Part shown: one piece after another, positions 14,375 through 23,109 of the stretch
Numbering within the stretch: the stretch's first letter is position 1
How the letters are laid out: each line of letters opens with the position of its first letter
Virus record (IMG/VR): IMGVR_UViG_3300042567_002692
Location: 1 to 23,678 of that record
Source of the DNA: a virus
DNA: 23,678 nt
Reading direction: 5' to 3' (one strand)
Program-made: the position numbers and the translations under genes
The notes under the pieces: model-generated
Seen by the model: the letters and a program-made list of their open reading frames with translations, nothing else
What the model was told of the DNA's origin: nothing
Databases searched by the model: none

Positions 14375-14674
14375 TTATTTAAAAGGGTTTTTTATTAACT
14401 TAAAAGACTTCTTATCAGAAGTCTCTAAGTGAAGTGATACAATTCCATCTTCTACTAGAGAATCTAGAATTGTATCAATCTCTTGAATTTCAGTTTGAAA
14501 CCTAGCAGATAGCTGCTGATTAGAGAAAAAGAAATCCTTAGTGCTTGAAGATGCGGTTTCTACCAAATAAAAAGAGATATCGCTCTTATCTGGATATCCA
14601 GTAAGTTCCTTTGCATTTCCAAGTATGTGTTTTATTTTTAACTTTTCGTAGTCAAATCCTGGGTTGAAACTCAT
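14375..14674 (-). CDS. Hypothetical protein, 99 aa, possible winged-helix fold
   Basis: A small protein whose ATG overlaps the UvsX stop (ATGA). The last half, FFFSNQQLSARFQTEIQEID followed by TILDSLVEDGIVSLHLET, has the helix-helix-strand rhythm of a winged helix, with a final FKLIKNPFK strand. I do not recognise a family, and it does not resemble T4 UvsY. Its place between the recombinase and the helicase, with translational coupling, suggests a mediator or loader role in replication, but that is inference. Confidence 0.8.
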   Translation of the reverse strand: MSFNPGFDYEKLKIKHILGNAKELTGYPDKSDISFYLVETASSSTKDFFFSNQQLSARFQTEIQEIDTILDSLVEDGIVSLHLETSDKKSFKLIKNPFK

Positions 14675-15873
14675 TCTTCAGTTGTTTTTTCATCTTCATC
14701 TATTAAATGATCAATTTCTTCAATAAACTCTTCATCTACACCGTAGCAGAAAGTAGGTTTAATAACTTTTTCATTAATTTCTTCAAGTATAGGTTCCATT
14801 ACACGTGGCGTAAAAAGCTCATTAGGCTTAATTACATCATTTAAGTGTCTTACTGCAATACCTCTTGCAGTTTCAGATGGTTGAAAATATACTAACATTT
14901 CCTTTTCATCCTTCTGATAACGATGTTCTTTGCATTCTGCCTGATCAGCTTCCTTTAATTTAAGATAATCTTTTTCACTAATAAACTTACCTTTTTGAAT
15001 TCCACAATTTTCCCAACTGATAAAGTCTTGAAGACCTACATAAGGATTCATTCCTTTATCGAATCTAATATAAAATTTTACAGGAGTAGGTTTTGCAAAA
15101 CGATTCTTGTTAGGTTTTGCAGTAACAATAATACCGGTTTTTTCTGCACCTTCAGCTAATTGAGCTTTTCCTAAGAAAAGAATAATTGAAGCTGCATACT
15201 CAGGTCCAGTTCCTCCTCCGGCAACTTGCTTACTAAAAAGATCTTGAGTCTGATAAGTGTGATTTGTAAAGATAAAAGGAATCTTACAAATTCCCATTTG
15301 AGTCATTAGGATTCTAAAAGTAGATTTCAAAAGTTTAGCTCTTGTCATATCTGACTTATCAGATCCAGAAGCTGCATCATCAATTTCCTTTTGAGTTGCT
15401 AAGTTTCCTGCAGAATCTAAGATTATCATTAATTTAGGAATTTCTACGCCTTTCTTTTTCTGTTCAAGAAGCATTTTAGTTAGATTAGTAACACTAGATC
15501 TAAATTCTTGAACAGTATTACACGGTTCATATCTTAATTTCTTGGGATCTATTCCAAACTTTTCTACTAAGCTTCTGTCTACTGCGTTTTCCGAATCATA
15601 GTAAACGATATAGTATCCGAGTTTCTGAGCCTCTCTTACCGCGTTTAGAGTTAAGAAAGTTTTACCGGTACCAGAAGGACCTGCAATACATACAGATCGA
15701 TTATTCGGAAAACCTCCGAATAAAGATCCAGTCAATGATGCATTTAATGCATAATTTCCTGTCGAGATGTAATGATCTACTTGTGAAATTTCACTCTTAT
15801 CCAGAGTGTCTCCATATGTAGAGATTTTTGACATCTCTTTGTTTAATTCTTCAAATGAAAATTCTTTTGCCAT
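14671..15873 (-). CDS. uvsX: Recombinase UvsX (RecA-like)
   Basis: A 400-aa RecA-family strand-exchange ATPase; T4 UvsX is 391 aa. The Walker A motif GPSGTGKT is at 65-72, preceded by the UvsX-type N-terminus with ISTGNYALNASLTGSLFGG (36-54). YYDSENAVD at 91-99 contains the catalytic Glu95. Walker B LMIILDSAGNL is at 148-158, and NHTYQTQDLFSKQVAGGGTG at 204-223 corresponds to the DNA-binding loop region. A strongly acidic tail ends the protein (EEIDHLIDEDEKTTEE), as in UvsX and RecA. It lies 21 bp downstream of the polymerase C-terminal gene, and its stop overlaps the 99-aa gene. With gp46/47 it would drive recombination-dependent replication. Confidence 0.96.
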   Translation of the reverse strand: MAKEFSFEELNKEMSKISTYGDTLDKSEISQVDHYISTGNYALNASLTGSLFGGFPNNRSVCIAGPSGTGKTFLTLNAVREAQKLGYYIVYYDSENAVDRSLVEKFGIDPKKLRYEPCNTVQEFRSSVTNLTKMLLEQKKKGVEIPKLMIILDSAGNLATQKEIDDAASGSDKSDMTRAKLLKSTFRILMTQMGICKIPFIFTNHTYQTQDLFSKQVAGGGTGPEYAASIILFLGKAQLAEGAEKTGIIVTAKPNKNRFAKPTPVKFYIRFDKGMNPYVGLQDFISWENCGIQKGKFISEKDYLKLKEADQAECKEHRYQKDEKEMLVYFQPSETARGIAVRHLNDVIKPNELFTPRVMEPILEEINEKVIKPTFCYGVDEEFIEEIDHLIDEDEKTTEE

Positions 15874-15894: not shown

Positions 15895-17049
15895 CTAGAA
15901 AACAGAGGTAGAGTAAATTAAATTTCTATCCAAAGTAGGAAGACCCATTGCAACAATTACTCTATTTATTGGATCTATGATAGCTTTTTCAAACTGCGCA
16001 TCATAATCAACGGGAGGAGCGAATTCATAAGGATGATCTCCTGCAACAAATCCAAAAATATCGCATACAGGATCTTTACTCACATACATTTTTATTTTTT
16101 CTCCGTTTGCAACATTTTTATACTTATTCTTAAATTTACTATTGTTTAATATATAGTTATAATATCCAGCTGCTCTTACATTCATAGGACATCCTTTTTC
16201 CATCTCAAATTCTGAATAATCATTTAGAATATATTTTTGGTAGTTATTAACTCTAAAGTTAAAACAAATATGTTCTATATTTGCAACTTTAAATTCTCTC
16301 TTAGTCTTTTTCATTAAAGCTATAAGTTCAGGATATTCTACCTTATCAACAGAAAAGAAATATTTTAAAATTTCTTTTAGTTTAGTTCTAGCAAAAAGCG
16401 GAGTACTGGACTGAATAATTTCAAATCCTTTTGCACTAATTTTAGTTAAAGAATCATAATGAATATCTGGATCTTTCCAAACAATATTCTGCATGTATTT
16501 CTTTTTTGCTAGCCAAATTGCGTTTTTGGCAACTGATTCTAATTCAAAGCTTAAGAAGTTATCCGAATTGTTCTTTTTTGCATAAGCATCTAGAATATTC
16601 TCAATATAAACTTTGAGTCTTACTTCATAAAGTTTAAGAATAAATTCTTTTTCATTTCCTTGCCACGTTGATTTTTCTAAAACCTCCTGAAATCTGAGGT
16701 AACAAGAATCAGTATCGATATAGATCACCAAAGGTTTTCTAACCTGACTTGTTACCTCAATTCCTAGAGCTTGATGAGCATCCTTGTCTTTATGCCAAAA
16801 TTCGTGGAAATACTTATTAATCATCTTCTCGGTATACAAAATTGCATCTTGTCCTTGAAGAGTGATTGTTTCCGCAAGATTAATATTGAAAAAATAGAAC
16901 CATTCGTTTCCAAATGCACCGTAAATTGAATTAAGCATCAATTTAACAGCTTGCTCAAAGTTATAATACTTTTTTGCTTCCTGTTCTACTCCTTGAAGCA
17001 AAGCTTCAAGTTCCTGAATTGTTAGTTCAGTTTCAATATTATTCTTCAT
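15895..17049 (-). CDS. 43B: DNA polymerase gp43, C-terminal half (palm motifs B and C, thumb)
   Basis: A 384-aa protein that begins in the fingers of a family B polymerase. Motif B (QAVKLMLNSIYGAFG, 33-47) carries Lys36, Asn40 and Tyr43, and motif C (YIDTDSCY, 110-117) carries Asp112 and Asp114. GFEIIQSSTP (208-217) corresponds to METQQSSTP of T4 gp43. The exonuclease domain and motif A are missing here but present in the separate gene at 21694-23109. Together the halves make 855 aa against 898 in T4, so the enzyme is split rather than degraded. The first 30 residues, IQELEALLQGVEQEAKKYYN and those before, form a helix that would pair with the basic helical end of the other half. The ATG overlaps the clamp stop by 11 bp. 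No split-intein sequence is visible. Confidence 0.95.
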   Translation of the reverse strand: MKNNIETELTIQELEALLQGVEQEAKKYYNFEQAVKLMLNSIYGAFGNEWFYFFNINLAETITLQGQDAILYTEKMINKYFHEFWHKDKDAHQALGIEVTSQVRKPLVIYIDTDSCYLRFQEVLEKSTWQGNEKEFILKLYEVRLKVYIENILDAYAKKNNSDNFLSFELESVAKNAIWLAKKKYMQNIVWKDPDIHYDSLTKISAKGFEIIQSSTPLFARTKLKEILKYFFSVDKVEYPELIALMKKTKREFKVANIEHICFNFRVNNYQKYILNDYSEFEMEKGCPMNVRAAGYYNYILNNSKFKNKYKNVANGEKIKMYVSKDPVCDIFGFVAGDHPYEFAPPVDYDAQFEKAIIDPINRVIVAMGLPTLDRNLIYSTSVF

Positions 17050-17794
17050 CGTCAGTTATCGCTACAGCAATAGTTAAAAGTGTGTTAGTATCTAAAGATT
17101 TGAAAACAATTTTATTAGAGCAGATTACTGCTTTATAATTTTCTTTGTCAAGAAGAGGTGCATATTTTTTATACACAGTCACTTCGGAATCGGAAGTTAA
17201 TCCGTTAATCTGATGTGTAAGTACTGCATCATAGCCTTCTCCTTCGATTGAAACTCCTGCAGCAGAACCTTTAAACTTAAATACTTCTTTGTCTTTATCA
17301 AGATTAAAAAGCGATTTCATTTTATCTGCATGAGTAGTCAACATTTCAAAATCAAAAAGAGATTCTGCAGTAGAAAATGCTCTTTTAACTTCTTCATCTG
17401 ACATTTCCATAAAAGATAAACTAGGATCTGCACAATAAAGTTTAATTTTTAAATCATCAGTTTCGATGATAAAGTCACTTGCAAAATAATCATTTCCAAC
17501 TTTGTCGAAAATAATTCTACCGGAACATTCTCCAGCAAAATGTGAAAGTGCTTCAATTACCTTATTTCCATTAAAGAAAGAAACTTTAACTGGAGCGTCT
17601 GGCCATTTTTCAACTTCAAACATTTCTTCTGTTCTTACACTGACAAGTTTTACTCCATCTCGCTGAGGAAGATACACAGAGGATACTGTGGATTTTTCTC
17701 CGATCTTTAAGAAAATAAACTTATCAATGGAAAGAAGCTTCTTGATAAACGCCTGGAATTCAAGCGTGTTTAGCTTTTTGATTTTAATTTCCAT
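17039..17794 (-). CDS. 45: Sliding clamp (gp45-like)
   Basis: I chose the start at 17794 (MEIKIKKLNTLEFQAFIKKL), giving 251 aa; T4 gp45 is 228 aa. An upstream in-frame ATG at 17842 would add 16 residues encoded by A/T-rich DNA that looks like leader. The protein is a gp45-type clamp: a first helix (LEFQAFIKKLLSI) resembling TTALLKNFATINSG, strands with FLKIGEKSTV, and the later inter-domain helix DFEMLTTHADKMKSLF, with an acidic end (ITDDEE). The clamp ring tethers the polymerase and in T4 also activates late transcription. It overlaps the polymerase C-terminal gene, which supports the assignment. A strong terminator lies 60 bp upstream, so the clamp-polymerase-uvsX operon must have its own promoter, probably in the TATAAAATAAAAA-rich leader (17800-17830). 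Confidence 0.85.
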   Translation of the reverse strand: MEIKIKKLNTLEFQAFIKKLLSIDKFIFLKIGEKSTVSSVYLPQRDGVKLVSVRTEEMFEVEKWPDAPVKVSFFNGNKVIEALSHFAGECSGRIIFDKVGNDYFASDFIIETDDLKIKLYCADPSLSFMEMSDEEVKRAFSTAESLFDFEMLTTHADKMKSLFNLDKDKEVFKFKGSAAGVSIEGEGYDAVLTHQINGLTSDSEVTVYKKYAPLLDKENYKAVICSNKIVFKSLDTNTLLTIAVAITDDEE

Positions 17795-17855
17795 TTTTTT
17801 ATAGATTTTTATTTTATAGTTAAAAAGTTCAGATTGTTTCAATATGATTAAAAAG

Positions 17856-17890
17856 AAAAAGGTCCTCTGCTTTAAACAGAGGACCTTTTT
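17856..17890 (-). terminator. Intrinsic terminator between the histone-like gene and the clamp
   Basis: A perfect 14-bp stem (AAAAAGGTCCTCTG, 17856-17869, with 17877-17890) and a 7-base loop. On the minus strand the stem ends in TTTTT-C-TTTT, and on the plus strand in six T, so it could stop transcription both ways. It closes the nrdB-nrdA-histone-like unit. Confidence 0.9.
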
Positions 17891-17905: not shown

Positions 17906-18082
17906 TTACTCAGCGTTCTTAGACTCTTGAACGTTTGTTCTTAAATCTTGAGCAAGTTTCTTAAGATCTTGCATTGATTTTCTTACACGAGTTCCGGCTG
18001 CCTTGTTGCCTTTTTCATAAAACCTTTGGATGTCTCCTTCAGTTTCGTTAACAAGGGCTTTAATTTTTTCAAAAATTTCCAT
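17906..18082 (-). CDS. Histone H1-like DNA-binding protein of Bacteroidota type, 58 aa
   Basis: Translated by hand: ATG at 18082-18080, TAA at 17908-17906. The protein begins MEIFEKIKALVNETEGDIQR and continues FYEKGNKAAGTRVRKSMQDL, ending KKLAQDLRTNVQESKNAE. The block KGNKAAGTRVRK(S/G)MQ(D/E)LK and the terminal VQE-KN are characteristic, to my knowledge, of the short histone H1/Hc1-like proteins found across Bacteroidota, where they bind DNA. Finding one in a T4-like phage suggests acquisition from such a host. It lies between nrdA and a strong terminator, so it would be the last gene of that unit. It may coat phage or host DNA or mimic the host protein. The family call is confident; the role in the phage is unknown. 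Confidence 0.85.
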   Translation of the reverse strand: MEIFEKIKALVNETEGDIQRFYEKGNKAAGTRVRKSMQDLKKLAQDLRTNVQESKNAE

Positions 18083-18157: not shown

Positions 18158-20587
18158 CTAGCTTCCGCATGCGATACATTCATCTGGATTATCTAATGAA
18201 CAAGTCATATCTTCAATAACTGAAAAGACTTGCTTATCTTCTACAGACTTAATAGGAACTGCAGGAACCGTAGCCAGTCTTTCAACTGATACTGAACTTG
18301 TATCTATTCCTAATCCCGCGAGAGCGTTTGCTGCAGATTTAGTTCTAAGATAGTACATTCCGGTTTTTAGTCCTTTTTCCCATGAATAAAAATGCGCTGA
18401 AGTAAGTTTAGCGGCATTACATCCTTCTATAAACAGATTCAAAGATTGAGATTGACAGATAAAAGCTCCTCTGTCAGCTGACATATCAATTAAATCTTTC
18501 TGTTTCATTTCCCATACTGTCATATAGACTTCTCTTAGATCTTGAGGAATTTCAGGAATATTCATAACTGAACCTTTTGCTGCAAAAAGTTTCAATCTCA
18601 TTTCCTCAGTCCAAAGACCTCTTATAATTAAATCTTCTACTAAATGCTTATTAATAAGAGTGTATTCACCTGCAAGAGTTCTTCTTTTATAAAGATTAGA
18701 AGTAAACGGTTCGAATGCTTCATTATTTCCAAGAATTTGAGCAGTTGACGCAGTAGGCATTGGAGCTACTAACAATGAATTTCTTACTCCGTGTTTTGCA
18801 ACTTTTTCTTTTAAAGCATTCCAATCCCATCTCGATGAGGGTTCAACATTCCACATATCAAACTGAAAAATTCCTTTTGATATTGGAGATCCTTTATATG
18901 ACTTATATGTCCCTTCTAAAGCTGCAATATCACACGATGCCTCGAGAGATGCGTAATAGATAGTTTCAAATATATCCTTATTAAGTTGCTTTGCTTCATC
19001 TGAAGTAAACGGTAATCCCAATAGCGCAAAAGTATCAGCTAATCCTTGAATACCTAATCCGATTGGACGATGTCTCATATTAGAATTCTTAGCCTCTTGG
19101 ACTGGATAGTAATTAACATCAATAACCTTATTTAAGTTTTTGGTAATTTGATAGGTTACTTCTCTAAGTTTTGCAAAATCGAAAGATCTCTGTCCTTTCT
19201 TCTTTTTAGAAGAAATATTTTCAATATATTTAGGAAGAGCAATTGAAGCAAGATTACATACTGCAATTTCATCTGCACTTGTATATTCCATAATCTCAGT
19301 GCATAAGTTACTTCCGTGTAAAGTTCCTAGATTCTTTTGATTATTTTTTCTATTTGCATGATCCTTAAAAAGAATATAAGGAGTTCCTGTTTCAATCTGA
19401 GATTCTACAATTTTCTCCCAAACTTCTCTTGCCTTTATAGTTTTTCTACCTTTTCCTTCAGCTTCATATTTAGCATAAAGAGCTTCAAATTCATCTCCAT
19501 AAGATTCATGTAAATTCAAAGCTTCATCTGGAGAAAATAAAGTCCAATTTCCATTTTCTTTTACTCTCTTCATAAAGAGGTCTGGAATCCACATTGCCAG
19601 AAAAAGATCTCTAGCTCTTAATTCTTCCTTACCATGATTTTTCTTTAAATCTAAAAAGTCAAATATATCAGAATGCCAAGGTTCTAAATAAACTGCAATA
19701 GATCCTTTTCTCTTACCTCCTCCTTGATCAACGTATCTTGCAGTTTCATTAAAGACTTTCAGCATTGGAATAATTCCATTTGAAGTTCCATTAGTACCTT
19801 TAATATAAGCACCTTTAGATCTTACGTTATGAATATGAATTCCAATTCCACCTGCATTTTTTGAAATCATTGCGCAGTCGGATAGAGTTTTATAAATACC
19901 TTCTAATGAATCATCTTTCATCATTAAAAGAAAGCAAGAAGACAATTGGGCTCTCTTAGTTCCTGCATTAAACAAAGTAGGAGTAGCGTGAGTAAACATT
20001 CCGTTTGACAGAAGTTCATAGGTTTTTAAAACCTCTTCCATATTACCAGACCATATTCCGCATGCAACTCTCATCCACATATGTTGAGGTCTTTCAGCTA
20101 CTTTTCCATAGGTTTTAAGTAAGTAACTTTTTTCCAGTGTTTTGTAACCGAAGTAATCGAAGTTAAAGTCTCTATCATATACGATGGCAGATTCTAATTC
20201 TTCTCTGTTACTTTCAATAAATTCATAGATTTTTTCGTCTATCATTCCAGCCTGAAGATTAGTTTTCGGATCTATATAATCTGAAAGGTCTTTTATAGTT
20301 TCGAAGAAAGATTTCTTTGTTCCTTTATGAAGTGAAGTAACTGCGATTCTACTTGCAAGAATAGAATAATCTGGATGAATAGATGTCATAGATGCTGCAG
20401 TTTCTGCTGCAAGGTCATCCAATTCTATACTTGAAACTCCATCATAAACACCTTGAATAACTTTTTTTGCTACTTCTAAAGCATCTACAAAATCATTATT
20501 TAACCCATAAGTCTGCTTTCTAATTCTATTACTAATCTTGTCATACTTTACGATCTCCTTGGATCCATCTCTTTTTATTACGTACAT
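18158..20587 (-). CDS. nrdA: Ribonucleoside-diphosphate reductase, large subunit (class I)
   Basis: An 809-aa class I NrdA that reduces ribonucleotides to deoxyribonucleotides. An ATP-cone starts the protein ([20 protein letters not shown]). Active-site residues occur at the same numbers as in human RRM1: Cys218 (SSCFLLM), Asn427, Cys429 and Glu431 (NLCTEIM), and Cys444 (AVCNLAS). The radical-transfer tyrosine pair is Tyr745-Tyr746 ([16 protein letters not shown]), and the tail has the redox pair CIAC at 804-807. This eukaryote-like numbering fits the RNR type also common in Bacteroidota rather than T4 NrdA. It follows nrdB by 20 bp, the reverse of the usual nrdA-nrdB order, and both lie between the two polymerase halves. 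No intron or intein is visible and the frame is full length. Confidence 0.97.
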
Positions 20588-20607: not shown

Positions 20608-21573
20608 TTAGAAGTCTTCGTTAAAACTAAAAGTGTCTGGTTCGACATTATTACCCATAACTCCGGCTTTTTGATATTCTCCTACTCGTTTTTCAAAGAA
20701 GTTTGTCTTTCCTTCGAGCGCAATATTTTCCATAAAATCAAAAGGATTTTTTGTATGATACTCTTTATCATATCCTAATGAAACTAGAAGTCTATCAGTC
20801 ACATATTCAAGGTATTCTTTCATTAATTCTGCATTCATTCCTATTAATCTTACAGGAAGAGCTTCTGTGATAAATTCTTTTTCAATCTGAAGGGCTGAAT
20901 CAAGGATTGAAAGAATTTCATCTCTTGTTAATCTATTAGTAAGTTGTTTATAGAGTAGGCATGCAAAATCAGTATGAAGACCTTCATCTCTTGAAATTAA
21001 TTCATTAGAGAAGCTTAAACCTGGCATTAATCCTCTCTTCTTTAACCAAAATATAGAACAAAAAGATCCGGAAAAGAAAATACCTTCAACCGCAGCAAAT
21101 GCTACTAAACGTTCTACGAATTTTTCACTGTTGATCCATCTCAATGCCCATTCCGCTTTCTTTTTTACTGCTGGTACTGTTTCAATTGCATTAAAAAGAT
21201 AATCTTTATCTTTAGAATCCGTAATGTACGTATCAATAAGTAAAGAGTATGTTTCAGAATGAATATTTTCCATCATAATCTGAAACCCATAAAAACATCT
21301 AGCTTCAGGATACTGAACTTCATTTAAAAAATTAATAGCTAGATTTTCGTTTACGATTCCATCACTAGCTGCAAAAAATGCTAAAACATGTTTGATGAAA
21401 TGCTTTTCATCTTCGTTAAGTTTTTCTCTCCAATCTGTAAGATCTTGGCTTAAATCAATTTCTTCAGCTGTCCAAAAACTAGCTTCTGCGGTCTTGTACA
21501 TTTCCCAGATGTCATGATGTTTAATGGGAAAGAGGACGAATCTAGTCGAGTCTTCTTTAAGTATATTTTCCAT
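20608..21573 (-). CDS. nrdB: Ribonucleoside-diphosphate reductase, small subunit (class I)
   Basis: A 321-aa ferritin-like subunit that generates the tyrosyl radical for NrdA. Metal ligands and radical residue are all present: Asp71, Glu102 and His105 (ENIHSETY), Tyr109, Glu163 ([10 protein letters not shown]), Glu197 and His200 (SRDEGLH). Spacing and wording match eukaryotic R2 (mouse Asp139, Glu170, His173, Tyr177, Glu233, Glu267, His270). The C-terminus TFSFNEDF matches the R1-binding tail. Start: the ATG is preceded by an A-rich leader (AAAAAAAAGAAAAAATGG) and no Shine-Dalgarno. A hairpin and a late-type promoter motif lie just upstream. It is the first gene inserted after the N-terminal polymerase half. 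Confidence 0.97.
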
Positions 21574-21693: not shown

Positions 21694-23109
21694 TTATTGT
21701 CCGGATTTCATTTTTTTAATTTTTTTTCTGATATCTTCAGCTTTCATCTGAAGCTCAAAGGATTTCTTTTTAAAGGTCTTTCGCTGAGAATAGAGATCAG
21801 TTAAGATATTTTTTAATATGGATTCTTCTTTTGAGTAAACAGCTCCTGTAATTGAAACTATTCGATCAGGTCCCATTTCTTGGTGTCTTTCAGATGGATC
21901 TACTTTCTTAATGAAAGAATCTGGACTTACATTTATCTGTCTCATGATAGATGGATATAGTGAAGCAAAGTCAAAACAAGCTACTGCTCGATGCATACCT
22001 ACTTCAGGTTGTTTTACATAAGCTCCAGCATATTGTTCACTTCGTGTTTTATGAGGAGCTTCCCAATCTTTTGCCATTACCTTCTTCTGTAAAAGAAACT
22101 TTCTGCATAAAAGAGATTCAGTAATTGCAACCGGAGATGCAGCTTTGTAAATTCCCATTTTACACATATTTGCAATAGTTAATGCAATTTCCATTGTTTT
22201 GATTTTATCATGAATTAGATAAACAAGACATGTATCAACTGCGTTATAGAATACATATTTCAAATAATCTTTTTCATATAAATCCTGAAGAGATCCGTTG
22301 TATTTGATTTTCTTTAAACCTACAACAACTTCTGCAGTAGAATCAAGAGTAAAATTCTCTTTAATGTCAATGCTTCTATCCCATTTTCTATAAAGTTCAA
22401 GATAATCCATAACTCCAACATGTAAAGGAATTCTATCTTGTCCTATTAGTTCTCCAGAAGGAGAAGATAGAGAAGGATCAATTGCAAGTTTAATTGCTCT
22501 ATTAGTAAGATAAGTCCAGTCAAAGTTAATAAAATTCCATCCTGACATCATCGGGAATTTCTTTACGAAAGAATCAAAGAAAGTGTACAACATATCATAT
22601 TCACTATTAAATTTTTTGAATATGAAACTAAATTTAACTCCTTTTTCTTTAAAATAATCATCAATCTGATCCTGAACTGTAGATTGTTCTTGTCTTGTAA
22701 TATCTTTAGTAGCGAGTACGATTACTTGAGCAGTTGGAGTTACAATTGCGATAGTAGTAACTGGATTATCAGCTCTTCCCGGTTCTGGGAAGGTGTCTTT
22801 AACTTCAACTTCAATATCAACAAAATAGATTTTTGGAAGACTAAATGCAAAAATTTCTTCGGATTCCTCTGGAGGTAATTTTTCAAAAAATTGAAGTAAA
22901 GAATATTTGTCTAAAGCTTTACCAGCTGCTAGTTTTACGGGTCTTCCATCCCAATTTTTCCATTCTTTAGATGCTGATTTGTCTTTATCTGAACAAACTT
23001 GCCAGTTTACAACTGCATCCAATTCATATTCTTTGAATTTGGTGTTTCCTTCTTTATCATAATAGGAAACTTTAAGATCTTTACCCTTCTGTTCGACGTC
23101 TAGTAGCAT
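21694..23109 (-). CDS. 43A: DNA polymerase gp43, N-terminal half (exonuclease domain and motif A)
   Basis: A 471-aa protein holding the N-terminal domain, the 3'-5' exonuclease and the first part of the palm and fingers of a T4-type family B polymerase. Exo I is FVDIE (96-100, Asp98 and Glu100), Exo II is NFINFD (192-197, Asp197) and Exo III is YNAVD (288-292, Asp292). Motif A is DFASLYPSIM at 380-389 (Asp380). The fingers begin at SQRKTFKKKSF (441-451) and stop after a basic helix ending KKIKKMKSGQ. Motifs B and C are encoded 4.6 kb downstream at 15895-17049. All exonuclease acids are present, so proofreading should be intact. The gene ends cleanly with no trace of an intron, homing nuclease or intein beside it. 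The dUTPase gene lies 31 bp upstream. Confidence 0.95.
   Translation of the reverse strand: MLLDVEQKGKDLKVSYYDKEGNTKFKEYELDAVVNWQVCSDKDKSASKEWKNWDGRPVKLAAGKALDKYSLLQFFEKLPPEESEEIFAFSLPKIYFVDIEVEVKDTFPEPGRADNPVTTIAIVTPTAQVIVLATKDITRQEQSTVQDQIDDYFKEKGVKFSFIFKKFNSEYDMLYTFFDSFVKKFPMMSGWNFINFDWTYLTNRAIKLAIDPSLSSPSGELIGQDRIPLHVGVMDYLELYRKWDRSIDIKENFTLDSTAEVVVGLKKIKYNGSLQDLYEKDYLKYVFYNAVDTCLVYLIHDKIKTMEIALTIANMCKMGIYKAASPVAITESLLCRKFLLQKKVMAKDWEAPHKTRSEQYAGAYVKQPEVGMHRAVACFDFASLYPSIMRQINVSPDSFIKKVDPSERHQEMGPDRIVSITGAVYSKEESILKNILTDLYSQRKTFKKKSFELQMKAEDIRKKIKKMKSGQ

Follow-up and report, generated by a model that had tools for sequence, protein, structure and literature searches.

Introduction

Chlamydial Hc1 (HctA) condenses DNA; it dimerises via its N-terminal domain, and DNA binding has been mapped to its lysine-rich C-terminal tail. 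Short proteins of the same family (PF07432) occur in Bacteroidota, where they are annotated as histone H1. Like the phage proteins described here, these are single-domain proteins (56–65 aa, about 58–66% identical); unlike the phage copies, they are chromosomal and lie on separate branches of the family tree. Eukaryotic linker histone H1 is a winged-helix globular domain, in contrast to the two-helix hairpin without strands that is modelled for the phage protein.

Phage members of the family have been noted before. The 'histone H1' of S-SRM01 (QPX48246.1), a phage with a cyanobacterial host, belongs to the same family (62 aa, about 47% identical over 36 residues), although its gene lies away from recognised replication genes, unlike the one analysed here. 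In addition, PF07432 proteins were reported in 2025 from moraphages, large phages probably infecting Bacteroidota (PMC12619734), in the single paper on phage Hc1 that our literature search turned up. These phages carry an Hc1-family gene as the present one does; the passages on it propose genome compaction, call the function unknown and are silent on gene context. Our literature search found no experiment with short Hc1 proteins binding DNA and no paper on the cellular function of the short Hc1 family. Phage members were thus already on record, from the 2025 paper (with no function assigned, PMC12619734) and from the annotation of the S-SRM01 copy; what this analysis appears to add is how broadly the family is spread in phages, the argument from domain content and the linkage to replication.

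A genuine Hc1-family gene in a phage genome

The DNA analysed, hereafter the window, is a virus record of 23,678 bases. On its minus strand, an ORF with an ATG start (17906–18082) encodes a 58-aa protein with predicted helices at residues 2–24 and 27–57. The sequence-only reading of the window had proposed an Hc1-like product for this ORF, and the profile search bore this out: PF07432 matched the product with 86.2 bits (cut-off 23.5; E = 1.3e-24) over model positions 1–56 of 57, which places it inside the Hc1 family and far over the curated cut-off.

Relatives of the ORF were found at no fewer than 579 viral loci and at least 525 genome loci, and two extra queries gave 443 and 243 viral matches belonging to more distant groups, sets that may overlap. 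All 93 of the 93 family representatives matched the profile. Between close phage Hc1 pairs, pN/pS was 0.03–0.14. Given these hundreds of relatives and the low pN/pS, the ORF is more than a chance reading frame; it is a genuine gene under strong purifying selection. Phage Hc1 proteins are 56–69 aa long, and none of the family members examined exceeded 69 aa.

The phage protein corresponds to the N-terminal domain of Hc1

The N-terminal part of chlamydial HctA aligned to residues 4–49 of the phage protein. Against the HctA model (NF051889, 121 positions), the phage protein scored 21.9 bits and covered model positions 7–51 only; the equivalog cut-off for this full-length model is 100 bits, and the 58-aa product falls below it. 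The lysine-rich DNA-binding tail of HctA was absent from all phage Hc1 members examined, and the window protein stops at 58 aa. Judged from these alignments, the phage protein is the N-terminal dimerisation domain of Hc1 alone, without the DNA-binding half.

The AlphaFold monomer was a two-helix hairpin with no strands (pLDDT 97.3). Sequence searches of solved structures returned no relative of the protein, and fold searches with the hairpin model returned generic helical hairpins only. Among 93 sequences, R34 and R48 were invariant, R32, K35 and K55 were basic in at least 95%, and position 17 was acidic throughout; the conserved acidic positions of the hairpin are D17, D39 and E50. From the hairpin geometry, D17 should face R34, which may therefore be structural, making R32, K35 and K55 better candidates for exposed contact. 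The net charge of the window protein is +2, and some phage members are acidic, down to −5.

Gene order around Hc1 in the window

The minus strand carries, in order, a dUTPase-like gene, the N-terminal part of a family B DNA polymerase (21694–23109), nrdB (20608–21573), nrdA (18158–20587), Hc1, a terminator, a clamp gene (17039–17794), the C-terminal part of the polymerase (15895–17049) and a gene for a UvsX-like recombinase (14671–15873). nrdA lies immediately upstream of Hc1 and the clamp gene is the next gene downstream. The family B polymerase is thus encoded in two pieces that are separated by nrdB, nrdA, Hc1 and the clamp gene, and the same split was seen in related loci L002 and L045.

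The 251-aa clamp product, counted from its ATG, matched no Pfam or PHROG family. Its low-confidence model (mean pLDDT 51.7) displayed four beta-alpha-beta-beta-beta-like repeats, and a fold search with this model gave PCNA chains in all 50 of the 50 best rows (best E 1.3e-5). This finding suggested that the product is likely, rather than proven, to be a PCNA-like sliding clamp.

A palindromic intrinsic terminator with A/T tracts on both sides follows Hc1 (17856–17890, minus strand). It forms 16 pairs with a T-run on the Hc1 strand and folds at −23.4 kcal/mol (z −5.5), with 0 of 200 shuffles equally good; by folding, the terminator is real. Both the proposed place of Hc1 as the last gene after nrdB and nrdA, on the same strand, and the proposed strong terminator were therefore upheld. 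Of the eight distinct loci found by the clamp search described below, seven (L366–L371 and L374) also showed a terminator-like hairpin 3' of Hc1, with differing sequences; L365 lacked one.

In the gap between terminator and clamp gene, a tentative promoter-like motif was located at 17812–17842 on the minus strand (TTGAAAC-N17-TATAAAA); this single match, with 0.29 expected by chance, is weak when taken alone. A TGAAAC sequence with an A/T-rich box of the ATAAAA type behind it recurs ahead of the clamp gene in the corresponding gap of L366–L374, and this recurrent element may be a candidate phage promoter.

Hc1 is kept with replication genes

Among 58 viral representatives, which were chosen for carrying Hc1, 32 had it no more than 3.5 kb from a gene for replication, recombination or ribonucleotide reductase; in ten long contigs, about 14% of positions were equally close to such genes. 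This comparison is biased towards linkage, as some markers and contigs were picked once the neighbours were known and related phages were counted repeatedly. Within the ten long contigs, Hc1 was nearer to such genes than 93–99% of positions. No recognised replication gene was nearby in the other 26 representatives, S-SRM01 included, although flanks were cut and divergent genes may have been missed. Across many unrelated phages, the settings of Hc1 were varied: clamp-adjacent, gp32-Hc1-uvsX, gp46-Hc1, pol-Hc1-uvsX-gp41, exonuclease-Hc1 and nrdB-Hc1.

A fairer test used 13 loci retrieved by the clamp alone. Hc1 was directly upstream of the clamp gene in 11 of these (8 distinct). In three of them, L366–L368, a distant reductase replaces nrdAB in place (L366 6–2588, L367 6–2568, L368 985–2583): compared with the window, nrdA was 26% identical there, Hc1 65–70% and the clamp 63–69%, and identity across clamp, polymerase and UvsX was 63–87%. 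Moreover, L365, from the contig of L045, has the order polymerase-Hc1-clamp with nrd genes absent between them. Since Hc1 stays where nrdAB has been replaced or is absent, it is kept with the replication genes and not with nrdAB. The idea that Hc1 is evolutionarily part of the nrd genes was rejected on the same grounds.

Several further features of these phage loci were observed. In contigs related to S-SRM01 (L166–L245), the setting of Hc1 differs from those above but is constant, with phrog_3316 and phrog_512 as its neighbours. In L002 (8202–10749), uvsX is broken by an extra stretch of about 1 kb, and apparently likewise in L374 from 4994 onward; the interruption is possibly an intron, an intein or a homing endonuclease insertion. 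A conserved protein of about 280–290 aa is encoded upstream of gp32 in L049 (4253–5119) and about 34 related loci. It starts with the glycine-rich motif MKIIGLGAAGCNLARAF, resembling an FtsZ or Rossmann protein, and had no PHROG or NCBIfam match.

Phage distribution, host and ancestry

The sequence-only reading had regarded the phage as T4-like. This holds for the head, replication and recombination gene set: portal, head maturation protease, head closure and DNA end protector proteins were identified, together with gp46/47-like SbcCD, a DnaB-like helicase, UvsX and the family B polymerase. The closest isolated relatives of NrdB were those of Tenacibaculum phages (67–69%), and the closest cellular Hc1 proteins among the matches listed were from Bacteroidota (60–66% identical). 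On these two sequence comparisons, a Bacteroidota host is likely. The further claim that Hc1 itself points to the host phylum stood only in part, because the family also occurs in the Synechococcus phage S-SRM01 and in large marine phage clades and is insufficient as a host marker on its own.

The nearest phage Hc1 was that of L002 (70% identical), and the nearest bacterial one was about 66% identical, both among the matches listed. In a tree of 96 sequences and 59 columns, which has many weak forks and gives no dates, the window protein grouped with phage sequences, and phage and bacterial rows were separate, with 6 label changes vs. 45 in shuffled data. A recent capture from the host was thus unsupported. 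That Hc1 is an old phage gene, kept beside genes for replication, recombination and nucleotide supply, forms part of the explanation that we tentatively favour.

On the bacterial side, Hc1 was directly downstream of a serine-palmitoyltransferase-like gene in 48 of 80 Bacteroidota loci (L120 3648–4898 and 47 other genomes). Neither this neighbour nor the biotin carboxylase found beside bacterial copies gave a functional hint.

Discussion

We propose, with a probability of roughly 45%, that the phage protein is a small dimeric accessory on replicating phage DNA, consisting of nothing but the dimerisation domain of Hc1. In this proposal, two hairpins would probably pair into a four-helix bundle, and the dimer would act during phage DNA replication as an architectural protein or as an adaptor to the replication machinery. 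Candidates for the contact with nucleic acid or with a partner are the conserved basic residues R32, R34, K35, R48 and K55, and the timing of expression would presumably fit such a role. It is the recurrent placement with replication genes, in unrelated orders, that favours a role in replication. Counting against it are the 26 of 58 representatives without a recognised replication gene nearby and the acidic phage members, which fit general DNA binding badly.

The family name, the DNA condensation by chlamydial Hc1 and the proposal made for moraphages (PMC12619734) all speak for a histone-like compactor, packaged with the phage DNA or condensing the genome for packaging. We consider this improbable: compaction, which the sequence-only reading had raised, does not follow from the family match, since the domain present is that of dimerisation, the tail that binds DNA in Hc1 is missing up to the longest member examined, and the charge is mild here and negative in some relatives. 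In addition, the neighbours are mostly genes for replication and nucleotide supply, not head genes.

Two other explanations seem unlikely, if less so. The phage protein shares its domain with the chromosomal proteins of Bacteroidota, at the identity given above for the matches listed, and in Hc1 dimerisation is ascribed to this domain; the phage protein might therefore mimic host Hc1, forming mixed dimers or displacing it and so disturbing the host nucleoid or transcription control. However, the tree places phage copies in lineages of their own, the family is also present in a cyanophage, and linkage to replication genes would be unexpected for a host-takeover gene. An adaptor that works purely between proteins and has no role at nucleic acid, for instance by tuning ribonucleotide reductase or else the clamp and polymerase, would suit a simple helical hairpin in which acidic positions are conserved alongside basic ones, encoded next to nrdA and the clamp gene, but the persistence of Hc1 after the nrdAB swap and its quite different neighbours elsewhere leave no single protein partner that fits, and the near-invariant R/K cluster R32-R34-K35 also argues against it.

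Extending the replication-accessory reading beyond this locus calls for more doubt. It is possible, though less likely than not, that the family is a widespread, unrecognised replication accessory in phages that infect Bacteroidota, cyanobacteria and further marine bacteria, acting on replicating DNA or at the replisome and not as a histone. The label 'histone H1' on the Bacteroidota and phage proteins derives from a chlamydial protein, and the half of it that binds DNA is missing from them; this annotation should not be taken as chromatin. For the Hc1 family, the gene contexts in phages instead provide a concrete hint of replication.
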